Positions 26,225 through 29,497 of a stretch of DNA of 36,159 nt are shown in pieces (within the stretch, counting starts at the first letter, position 1; each line of letters starts with the position of its first letter). The stretch comes from Gammaproteobacteria bacterium. Lineage in GTDB: Bacteria > Pseudomonadota > Gammaproteobacteria > Chromatiales > Chromatiaceae. A program made the position numbers and the translations under genes. The notes beneath the pieces were generated by a model. That model had not been told where the DNA came from. It worked only from the letters and a program-made list of their open reading frames with translations, and searched no databases. The stretch is taken from contig JAABSM010000036.1 of NCBI GenBank assembly GCA_011390365.1, forward strand, positions 1 through 36,159, read 5' to 3'.

Positions 26225-26347
26225 CCACAGAGGCACGGAGCACACAGAGTATTTTCAATCCGCTATCCGGCTATTCGTGACCAGCTTATCGGGAGTTAGG
26301 CACCTACAACGCCGTGCTATCCCTCTGTGACCTCTGTGTCTCTGTGG
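26225..26347. repeat. Dispersed CACAGAG inverted-repeat unit
   Basis: Arms 26225-26249 (CCACAGAGGCACGGAGCACA...) and 26322-26347 (ending CTCTGTGTCTCTGTGG), filling the gap before the ureohydrolase gene. Confidence 0.75.
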
Positions 26348-26370
26348 CTAAACAGGAAATCTTCGACATC

Positions 26371-27417
26371 ATGGACCTGGAACAAACCATCGCCGAACTG
26401 GAACTGGGCCTGCCCCCCGCCGCCGACGCCGGCTTTCTCGGCTCCCGCCTCGACCCGGCACAGGCCGCCCTGCTGCTGCTGCCCGTGCCCTGGGAGGCCA
26501 CCGTCTCCTATGGTCGCGGCACCGCTCGCGGCCCCGAGGCGATCCGCCTCGCCAGCCACCAACTGGACCTGGAAGACCCCGCCTTCGGCCAGCCCTACCA
26601 CGCCGGCATCGTCGACCTGCCCCCCATCGACGGCATCGAGGCCCTCAACCGCCAGGCCATCCCGCTGGTGCAGGAGGTCGTCGCGGCACTGGAAACCGGC
26701 AAGCCACCGCCAGCGGCGCTGGACCGGGTCAACGCCATCGGCGCGGAGGTCAACCAACGGGTCCGAAGCGCCGCCGAGGCATTGCTTGAACAAAACCGCC
26801 TGATCGGCCTGGTCGGCGGCGACCACTCCTGCCCCTTCGGCCTGATCCAGGCCCTCGCCCAGCGCCACCCCGACGGCTTCGGCGTACTCCACATCGACGC
26901 CCACCACGACCTGCGCCACGCCTTCGAAGGCTTCACCTGGTCCCACGCCTCCATCTTTCGCAACGTCATGGCGCGGATCCCCCAGGTCATCCGCCTGACC
27001 CAGGTCGCCATTCGCGACTACTCCCGGGAAGAGGCGGAGTACGCCCGCGCCCTGGACGAGCGCAACCGCACCTTCTACGCCGCCGACCTCTTCCGCCGCA
27101 AGGCCGTCGGCGAAACCTTCCACGCCATCGCCCAGGACATCATCCAATCCCTGCCCGAGAAGGTCTATATCTCCTTCGACATCGACGGCCTCGACCCGCC
27201 CTACTGCCCCCACACCGGCACCCCCGTCCCCGGCGGCCTCAGCTTCGACGAAGCCGGCTACCTGCTCGAACAACTCGCCGCCAGCGGTCGCCGCATCATC
27301 GGCTTCGACCTCTGCGAAGTCGCCCCCGCCGACAACGACGAGTGGGACGCCAACGTCGGCGCGCGCATCCTCTACAAACTCTGCGGCGCCACCCTGCGCG
27401 GCAACGGCCTCTGCTGA
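26371..27417 (+). CDS. Agmatinase/arginase family ureohydrolase
   Basis: 348 residues from ATG 26371. The di-manganese motifs are complete: GGDHSCP, HIDAHHDLR (the DAHxD site) and SFDIDGLDP. Family members hydrolyse guanidino groups of agmatine, arginine, guanidinobutyrate and similar compounds to release urea. The GTARGPEAIRLAS opening and the length resemble the agmatinase/SpeB side of the family, but substrate cannot be fixed from sequence alone. The 19 extra codons upstream fall in the repeat arm and were excluded; AGGAA lies before the chosen ATG with a long spacing. Confidence 0.88.
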   Translation: MDLEQTIAELELGLPPAADAGFLGSRLDPAQAALLLLPVPWEATVSYGRGTARGPEAIRLASHQLDLEDPAFGQPYHAGIVDLPPIDGIEALNRQAIPLVQEVVAALETGKPPPAALDRVNAIGAEVNQRVRSAAEALLEQNRLIGLVGGDHSCPFGLIQALAQRHPDGFGVLHIDAHHDLRHAFEGFTWSHASIFRNVMARIPQVIRLTQVAIRDYSREEAEYARALDERNRTFYAADLFRRKAVGETFHAIAQDIIQSLPEKVYISFDIDGLDPPYCPHTGTPVPGGLSFDEAGYLLEQLAASGRRIIGFDLCEVAPADNDEWDANVGARILYKLCGATLRGNGLC

Positions 27418-27816: not shown

Positions 27817-29142
27817 TCACCAACGGATCTCACGAAACAGGGTCATCAGGTTCTCGCCCTTTGTGTCATTGATCGAGCGCACATGGGCGATCCTGCCGAG
27901 CAGGTGGGCGCGAAAGTCGGGGTGGTGTTGGCGGTTCTGGCTTGCCGGGCCATGGCGCACGCAGTTGGTGAGGATCGCCTTGAGTTGGTCGAAGGTTCGG
28001 CGGGGAATGTTGGGTCGTTGGTTGACGACCATGCCGAGCAGCCGTTGTTGGCCGCCCTGGCCGGTGTGGCGGCTCTTGCGCTGGTTGAGGGCGAAGCCCT
28101 CTTCGAGGACGATGCGCTGGATCAGCACCCGAAGGCGCTGAAACTCGCCGTTTGCCATGCGCCTGCCGGAGAAGGCCATATCGTCGGCATAGCGGGTGTA
28201 GTTGAGGTCCATCCGCTCCGCCAGCGCGGCAAGACGGCAATCGAGTCGCCAGGCGCAGAGGTTGGCGAGGGCCGGGGAGGTGGGAGCGCCTTGAGGCAGG
28301 TGCAGGGCCATCAGCCGGTTGCGGGTCGCCCAGGGCAGACCGCGCCGTGCGGATTCGCCATTGACCAGCGCCGGGGGCGCGCGATGGGCGCACAGGCCGC
28401 GCAGCAGGATCGCCACTGGTTCGGGGTAGCCCAGGGCGCGAAACAGGGCGAGAAGTCGTCCGCCGCCGATGGAGGGAAAGAAGGCTTGCAGGTCCATGCG
28501 AATGAGGGATTCCTGACCGATGTGAGGGAGCGCGGCGGTACGGCAGGAACAACCGGCGACGAAGCCGTGGGCCGCGGGGTGGACCGGTACTTGCGCCAGC
28601 AATTCGTCGAGGAGCCGCCGCTGGATCCGCTTGAGTCGTGGGCGAGGCGCTTCGAGCAGGCGCAGCTCGCCGTCGGATTTGGCGGCGAAGAGATAGCGAT
28701 AGTGGCACAGGGGGCCGTGCGTGATCCGGCGCAGACGGCCCTCGGGATCGGCGAACCATAGTAGCTGCCCCATCGACAGGCCGAGGAGGTCGGCCAGGTC
28801 TTGCGGGGTGTGGAGGATTGGCAGGGCGCAGTGGGCGAGCGCCGGGAGCGGCGCTTCCATGCTCTGGGGTTCGAGGGGGTAGCGGACGATGCGCGGGCGG
28901 GTGACTTGCACCTCCCAGGCGCGGCTGAAGCCGGCGTCTTCGAAGATCATTCGCGCCAGTTGCCGCGAGGGCGGGCGGCGAAAGTCGCCGAACTGGCTCC
29001 AGACGCGGTGGATCAGCGGTTGCAGCCAGCGCCGATCCCCTTCTAGCGCGGATTCCAGCCGCTCGACCATCGCCCGCCGCTGCCACTCGCCGGAGAGCAG
29101 GATGTGGGCAATGGCCTGGGCGGTTTGCTGCTTTTTGCTCAT
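27817..29142 (-). CDS. Retron-type reverse transcriptase
   Basis: 441 residues from ATG 29142. The RT core starts near residue 110 (TPQDLADLLGL...LLWFADPEG), followed by CHYRYLFAAKSDGELRLLEAPRPRLK, PAAHGFVAG, the first catalytic Asp217 in RMDLQAFFPSI, LPQGAPTSP (282-290) and the catalytic YADD box (318-321, in YTRYADDMAFSG). The wording and the roughly 110-residue N-terminal extension recall the long myxobacterial Mx162-type retron RTs. Two retron signatures are off-consensus: the VTG box reads RLLG in RLLGMVVN (367-374), and the NAxxH box reads AALPH (203-207). Retron RTs copy part of their own upstream RNA into branched msDNA, usually for phage defence. The RT is preceded by a candidate msr-msd RNA. 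No effector gene adjoins it. No Shine-Dalgarno precedes the ATG. Confidence 0.93.
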   Translation of the reverse strand: MSKKQQTAQAIAHILLSGEWQRRAMVERLESALEGDRRWLQPLIHRVWSQFGDFRRPPSRQLARMIFEDAGFSRAWEVQVTRPRIVRYPLEPQSMEAPLPALAHCALPILHTPQDLADLLGLSMGQLLWFADPEGRLRRITHGPLCHYRYLFAAKSDGELRLLEAPRPRLKRIQRRLLDELLAQVPVHPAAHGFVAGCSCRTAALPHIGQESLIRMDLQAFFPSIGGGRLLALFRALGYPEPVAILLRGLCAHRAPPALVNGESARRGLPWATRNRLMALHLPQGAPTSPALANLCAWRLDCRLAALAERMDLNYTRYADDMAFSGRRMANGEFQRLRVLIQRIVLEEGFALNQRKSRHTGQGGQQRLLGMVVNQRPNIPRRTFDQLKAILTNCVRHGPASQNRQHHPDFRAHLLGRIAHVRSINDTKGENLMTLFREIRW

Positions 29143-29205
29143 GATGGGGGAATAGGAAAATCCGCCGAGGACGGAGCAGTGATCACATGGCCTGGATTTG
29201 TGGGA

Positions 29206-29220
29206 GCGCTTTGCAAGCGC
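29206..29220. repeat. GCGCTT-TGC-AAGCGC palindrome between msd and RT
   Basis: Member of the GTGGGAGCGxTTTGCAAxCGCGAA family (other copy near 24775). It lies 4 bp outside the a2 repeat of the retron RNA. Confidence 0.65.
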
Positions 29221-29224
29221 GAAA

Positions 29225-29385
29225 GACGGCGATACCTCCAACCCGTCTCGTCCGGCGTGAACTGATCCGCACTTGGGTGCGGATGCGTTCACGCGACCTG
29301 GTGGTCTACTCGCTTCGATTCCTCGGGGTAGCCCCGAAGAGGCCTGGCAGGCGTGCTGCTTCGGCCAACTTGGAGGTCCGCCGTC
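29225..29385 (-). ncRNA. Candidate retron msr-msd RNA
   Basis: Read on the minus strand. a1 (29385-29370) GACGGCGGACCTCCAA pairs with a2 (29241-29225) TTGGAGGTATCGCCGTC over 15 bp with one small internal loop. Directly after a1 come two abutting msr stem-loops. SL1 (29366-29341) has GGCC/GGCC and inner GCAG/CUGC stems. SL2 (29340-29320) has a 9-bp stem UCUUCGGGG/CCCCGAGGA with a 3-nt loop. After a 25-nt linker the msd hairpin (29294-29255) has GCGUGAAC/GUUCACGC and AUCCGCAC/GUGCGGAU stems with a UUGG-complement loop. The order a1-msr-msd-a2 followed by the RT 83 bp later is the retron layout. The fold was found by eye; the branching guanosine is not assigned. Confidence 0.75.
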
Positions 29386-29391
29386 GGGGTT

Positions 29392-29420
29392 ACGATACGC
29401 TTCGATTCAGGTCATGGCAA
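29392..29420 (-). promoter_or_regulatory. Sigma70-like promoter of the retron
   Basis: Minus strand TTGCCA (29420-29415), 17-bp spacer, TATCGT (29397-29392). Seven bases after the -10 box comes G 29385, the first base of a1, which is where a retron RNA is expected to begin. Confidence 0.6.
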
Positions 29421-29441: not shown

Positions 29442-29470
29442 TTGACAAGACCCATGCGAACCCGGATGAT
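29442..29470 (+). promoter_or_regulatory. Promoter of the fbpA iron-uptake gene
   Basis: TTGACA (29442-29447), 17-bp spacer, GATGAT (29465-29470); TGATAC at 29467 is an alternative -10. It stands 21 bp from the divergent retron -35 box. Confidence 0.55.
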
Positions 29471-29478
29471 ACGCAAAC

Positions 29479-29497
29479 GATAACGATTATCAATTCC
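29479..29497 (+). promoter_or_regulatory. Fur box upstream of fbpA
   Basis: GATAACGATTATCAATTCC matches the 19-bp Fur consensus (GATAATGATAATCATTATC) at 14 positions, just downstream of the -10 box. Fur with Fe(II) would block transcription, giving expression under iron limitation. Confidence 0.75.

Follow-up and report, generated by a model that had tools for sequence, protein, structure and literature searches.

The stretch of DNA analysed here, positions 1-36,159 of contig JAABSM010000036.1 from the Gammaproteobacteria bacterium assembly GCA_011390365.1 (Chromatiaceae), which as a whole is called the window below, carries what is, judged from its sequence, very probably a complete, single-copy and intact-looking retron; that confidence covers its being a retron, its role apart. 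Retrons are small units of bacteria that make a DNA copy of a portion of their RNA. Read as it is transcribed, the minus strand carries a promoter (29420-29392), then the msr-msd RNA (29385-29225) and then a reverse transcriptase (RT) gene (29142-27817). The evidence consists of the sequence, the fold, covariation, promoter conservation, the linkage of RNA and RT, the clade to which the RT belongs and purifying selection in relatives. An earlier note on this DNA had described the unit as an apparently intact, uncatalogued retron with an Mx162-like RT. The observation is confirmed, and the reading as an intact-looking retron is strongly supported. The family label is corrected: on sequence comparison, the window retron falls in a clade distinct from Mx162 and Mx65 (type XIII). 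This clade, a little-studied branch, has a conserved RNA family of its own. As a retron the unit is of a known kind, and its interest lies in the RNA family of the clade, its unusual motifs and the fact that no shared partner was found.

The RNA (29225-29385) folds with a free energy of -89.2 kcal/mol (z -7.3), a value equalled by none of 200 shuffled sequences. Its ends pair through the a1 arm (29370-29385), defined by the minimum free energy fold, and the a2 arm (29225-29241), defined by the fold, the covariance model and covariation. This closing stem (helix 1) consists of 16 pairs and one bulged base, in line with the roughly 8-30 complementary end bases of retrons, and shows two-sided changes in 15 of its 16 pairs. 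The earlier note had drawn the boundaries of the 161-nt segment exactly, as well as its two msr stem-loops and 40-nt msd hairpin, all of which are present in the fold; the 15-bp a1/a2 repeats, on the other hand, turned out to be a bulged stem of 16 pairs and not a perfect 15-bp one. The first unpaired base past a1, directly adjoining its inner end as the retron guanosine does, is G29369 (local word AAGT), the predicted priming (branch) guanosine. It is invariant in 15 of 15 relatives (alignment A2), and the window has G at the aligned position.

Between the arms, msr stem-loop 1 (29341-29366) is taken from the window fold. It is variable in sequence and lies outside the covariance model, yet relatives form the hairpin too: 31 of 34 loci have z < -1 (37 were given and three, being too short, were dropped). 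Msr stem-loop 2 (29320-29340), supported by both fold and model, has a 9-bp stem and a 3-nt loop of the CCGGGGnnACCCCGG type, with two-sided change in four of nine pairs and the other five invariant. The msd hairpin (29255-29294, 40 nt), the template of the predicted msDNA (multicopy single-stranded DNA), is supported by fold, model and covariation, with two-sided change in 12 of 14 pairs. The RNA thus has the one to three msr hairpins of about 7-10 bp and the single long msd hairpin of a retron. Furthermore, the complementary DNA strand of 29241-29310 folds as well (z -5.6). Directly ahead of a2, the alignment contains a conserved ACGAGAnnGG-type element (29242-29251), which may be where reverse transcription starts.

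The covariance model, R1, was trained on 15 relatives picked by their RT and a visible closing stem, with the window excluded. In the window its sole match (E up to 10) is 29225-29385, at 79.3 bits and E 1.7e-14 over the whole model (1-168). According to the earlier note, two findings would have spoken against a retron: close RT homologues lacking the RNA upstream, or an RNA scattered as a repeat. Neither was found. The genome of the window gave a single match at E <= 0.001 (150 of 2327 first-look candidates scored), and among 88 sources R1 matched all 38 with a clade RT, namely the window and 37 other loci, at E <= 0.0033; those 37 include the 15 training loci and several near-copies, L139 being the same sequence as L003. 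The match is partial in L013 (model 14-156) and stands at E 0.0009 in L021. In the remaining 50 sources, which have no assigned clade RT (26 placed outside the clade by the tree, 24 unplaced), there was no match below 0.01. The linkage also holds when the search starts from the RNA: in 369 genomes from the class, four matched (that of the window, G008 and two new ones), and an RT adjoins the RNA in all four, lying just downstream and 42-44% identical in the two new genomes. Across 35 aligned loci, 95.5% of cells are paired and two-sided changes occur in 31 of 39 pairs; the alignment was fitted to the model and contains training rows, which tilts these figures toward the structure. None of 500 shuffles reached any of five measures, and slid versions dropped to 34-46% paired. 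A search of Rfam with the RNA gave no match at the gathering threshold, so that 'uncatalogued' is true for Rfam; the RT group is already covered by PADLOC.

Some other loci deserve mention beside this RNA family. A weak R1 match (L091:3511-3664, E 0.29) lies just 5' of a Tsukamurella plasmid RT, which is possibly a distant member of the clade. Two Planctomycetota loci (L010:4426-4580 and L011:4440-4594) have a similar closing stem and a GGGGTTACCCC hairpin with no R1 match, and perhaps represent a sister RNA family. Finally, the G008 relative (L085/L124, G008:C9:5449-6726) has one in-frame TAG early in its RT and an RNA that fits the model well, and could be a decaying retron.

The promoter reads TTGCCA (-35, 29420-29415), a 17-nt spacer and TATCGT (-10, 29397-29392), is of sigma-70 type with 9 of 12 matches, and its -35 element begins 35 nt ahead of a1. 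The word TTGAC lies 33-41 nt ahead of a1 in 25 of 37 loci, where 0.48 would be expected from its rate in the same upstream DNA. Twelve of these 25 belong to one genus, and the other 13 are L001-L003, L010, L088-L090, L121, L122, L131, L135, L137 and L141. The promoter named in the earlier note is present as described; its placement of the start site at the first a1 base is supported and falls short of proof, because a second promoter-like site (29493-29466, 10 of 12 matches) lies upstream on the retron strand.

The RT gene (27817-29142, stop codon included) begins 82 nt downstream of the RNA, in which msr precedes msd on the same strand, as in retrons; the earlier note had likewise seen a YADD RT with the RNA segment 5' of it. 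Its frame of 441 codons has no internal stops, YADD occupies residues 318-321, and the start at 29142 agrees with the starts of aligned relatives. The protein is a retron-group RT with a YxDD catalytic core. Among PADLOC profiles it matches RT_other (489 bits, full-length), RT_outgroup (466 bits, full-length) and RT_XIII (294 bits); the first two give no mechanism. Eight comparison RTs were divided by the same profiles: L001, L005, L009 and L088 from the clade and L010 from outside it score best as RT_other, and L016, L100 and L101 as RT_XIII. In the tree of 63 rows, which was built from RTs alone, has no known root and contains several long branches (the Mx162 and Mx65 types among them), a branch supported at 99/96 sets apart the 36 rows with R1-matched loci, and a single change is needed. 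Of the other 27 rows, 26 were searched without an R1 match and one, L054, was not searched. All 36 clade RTs have YADD. The clade extends over four named phyla, Pseudomonadota, Myxococcota, Verrucomicrobiota and Actinomycetota; Verrucomicrobiota and Actinomycetota are represented solely by metagenome bins. In the family to which the window belongs, matches at E <= 1e-40 were obtained from 24 of 211 genomes, which represent 8 of 61 genera. A near full-length RT occurs in 22 of the 24, one of them being the window's genome, and the RNA is present in all 21 others.

Several features of the window weigh against its being an intact retron of the usual kind. Region X is AALPH and region Y is LLG, in place of NAxxH and VTG. 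In the excerpted text of PMC6868368, NAxxH occurs in 14 of 16 validated retron RTs and VTG in 14, with two named exceptions. As either motif has its exceptions among the validated RTs, the departures are compatible with a retron and serve rather to mark the clade: the first residue of region X is N in one of 36 clade rows (F in 19, Y in 7, H in 5, G in 3 and A in 1) as against 22 of 27 other rows, and VTG is found in 5 of 36 as against 25 of 27. The branch-site word is AAGT in the window and GAGC or GAGT in most relatives, and AAGT is absent from the words listed in that excerpt of PMC6868368. Relative to R1, the window RNA has one non-standard pair and one a1 position deleted. Moreover, TTGAC is not at the expected distance in 12 of 37 loci, the window's among them.

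Retrons are commonly described as three-part defence units of RNA, RT and effector. In 218 clusters of neighbouring open reading frames (ORFs) from 40 loci, no partner gene common to the clade was found near the RT. Two of the 218 clusters cross lineages, a generic ABC (ATP-binding cassette) ATPase and the ORFs opposite to it, and the flanks of 21 representatives match solely within one genus. As no clade-wide neighbour was found, it appears probable, on balance, that there is no dedicated effector in cis and that the particle of RT and msDNA works through its own N-terminal helical domain or an unlinked host protein. The absence of a shared neighbour would be compatible with unrelated, lineage-specific effectors too, which tells against that view. 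Excerpts of PMC8989520 / PMC12405507 describe a separate accessory protein for Retron-Eco1 (Ec86) and a fused topoisomerase-primase domain for Retron-Eco2 (Ec67); we recognised neither at the window retron. Some retrons without a clear effector association are mentioned in the excerpted text of PMC8867640, and one such clade is outlined here, with its RNA family and promoter.

The effector could instead lie inside the RT itself, and we regard this as a possibility to be held tentatively: the N-terminal helical domain of about 80 residues would be the effector, or an adaptor to a host target, in a two-part retron. This domain (residues 1 to about 80 plus the start of the linker, 28858-29142) was modelled alone as a compact unit (predicted local distance difference test score, pLDDT, 84.9; predicted template modelling score, pTM, 0.77), with a low-confidence linker to the RT. 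It aligns across the clade members examined, near whose RTs no shared cis gene was found, and it is under purifying selection, the ratio of nonsynonymous to synonymous substitution rates (dN/dS) being 0.17-0.25 in 7 of 10 clade pairs and 0.14-0.54 over all ten; these pairs are relatives and do not include the window RT itself, which is a further point for caution. The window's domain has no Pfam match, no clear PDB match, and neither a catalytic motif nor a known fold that we could find. In conservation the domain ranks below the RT, with 18-30% identity to that of the window. In addition, Mx162-type RTs also have extended N-termini (excerpt of PMC6868368) and yet a separate partner gene, so the domain could simply bind RNA. 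A wider and similarly tentative proposal is that the clade, present in four or more phyla, constitutes a two-part lineage: its working unit would be just the RNA and the RT, which would dispense with a dedicated partner gene and act through the clade-specific N-terminal domain or on some core target in the cell.

An effector that is present in cis but differs between lineages is unlikely. Such replacement has been proposed for Retron-Sda1 (excerpt of PMC12548924), and here the effector would perhaps be the arginase-family gene (26314-27417) or another neighbour. On that side of the retron lie the arginase-family gene, a rhodanese, an orotidine 5'-monophosphate (OMP) decarboxylase and a LapB-like tetratricopeptide repeat (TPR) gene; on the other, a divergent ABC transporter, a MauG-type peroxidase and a rubrerythrin. 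A PADLOC scan of four of these neighbours gave no match, and the arginase and RT genes converge and so do not form one operon. Less likely again is that the unit has decayed, its RNA and RT still readable and msDNA no longer made. The non-standard regions X and Y, the stop codon in the RT of the relative G008 and the long terminal branch (0.85) on which the window RT stands would fit decay; the open 441-codon frame, the intact YADD and a closing stem kept through compensatory changes relative to relatives argue otherwise.

It is very improbable that the window holds a type XIII (Mx162/Mx65-like) retron with its partner genes lost or moved. Three RTs were identified in Myxococcus sp. CA023: one of 485 aa and one of 427 aa, which we take to be the Mx162 and Mx65 types, and L005. 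RT_XIII is the best profile for the former two (514 and 439 bits, respectively), and L005 scores like the window RT. The window clade shares with type XIII an extended N-terminus, YADD and an msr-msd upstream, and its GAGC-type branch word is that of Mx65 in the excerpt of PMC6868368. Moreover, the window RT does match RT_XIII (294 bits), and its RT part alone is 39-40% identical to the type XIII rows L016 and L099, near the values for clade rows. However, RT_other exceeds RT_XIII by 489 to 294 bits, the tree separates the clade at 99/96, and identity is 31.8% to the Mx162-type and 33.5% to the Mx65-type RT as against 39-48% to the compared clade rows. R1 has no match in L099-L101. SWIM_XIII stands upstream of the RT in all type XIII controls (L016, L099, L100 and L101) and has no match at E <= 0.001 in the window's genome. 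Among 18 genomes that carry a clade RT, the search for SWIM_XIII came up empty in 15, and in the other three it adjoins a separate RT. The window clade thus differs from type XIII in RT profile, clade, RNA family, X and Y motifs and the lack of a SWIM_XIII partner in our searches, and the label 'Mx162-like' had to be given up. As a separate observation, a SWIM_XIII gene with one in-frame TAG (L149, G047:C399:7060-8445) lies beside the RT stretch L087; the genome concerned has a clade retron as well.

Equally improbable, finally, is an RT that resembles the defence-associated RTs (DRTs) and makes non-branched DNA on a structured RNA: some defence RTs do use structured RNAs (according to the DRT10 abstract), but in a Foldseek comparison with the PDB the best 18 rows are all retron RTs, with DRT2 in 24th place and DRT9 also below the retron RTs, and the order msr-msd-RT, the closing stem and the guanosine right next to a1 agree with the description of retrons in the excerpt of PMC6868368.

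For an intact retron, then, the transcription, msDNA synthesis and product length of the window unit may be predicted as follows; that the unit is functional, as the earlier note had supposed, and what its biological role would be are likewise inferences. Transcription would begin at or near 29385, and pairing of a1 with a2 would close the RNA on itself. The RT would recognise the msr, probably at the hairpin of 9 bp and 3-nt loop, and the 2'-OH of G29369 would serve as primer under the established retron scheme (excerpt of PMC6868368). Copying would proceed from about 29242 through the msd hairpin at 29255-29294, and host RNase H would trim the template until a branched msDNA remained, its DNA part about 55-70 nt long. 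With its purifying selection, its strongly covarying RNA and no shared partner found, the clade offers a clean system in which to study the action of msDNA itself. That action can be tested directly with the RNA family, boundaries and priming site described above, and the clade also enlarges the set of compact RNA-RT pairs usable for DNA production in cells.

Some minor observations concern the surroundings of the retron. A terminator-like hairpin (29161-29175) between the RNA and the RT gene is no better than chance, and could set the ratio of RNA to RT. Upstream, a promoter-like site (29442-29470, 10 of 12 matches) is directed toward the ABC transporter, and an AT-rich stretch within 29442-29493 that by eye resembled a Fur site failed a pattern test. 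The window's own genome contains a further RT-like stretch (L093, G000:C19:2496-3152), with 59 bits to RT_outgroup, which lies within a 1006-aa open frame. An RNase P RNA gene (L005:1332-1727; Rfam RF00010, 302.5 bits) is situated close to the retron copy of Myxococcus.
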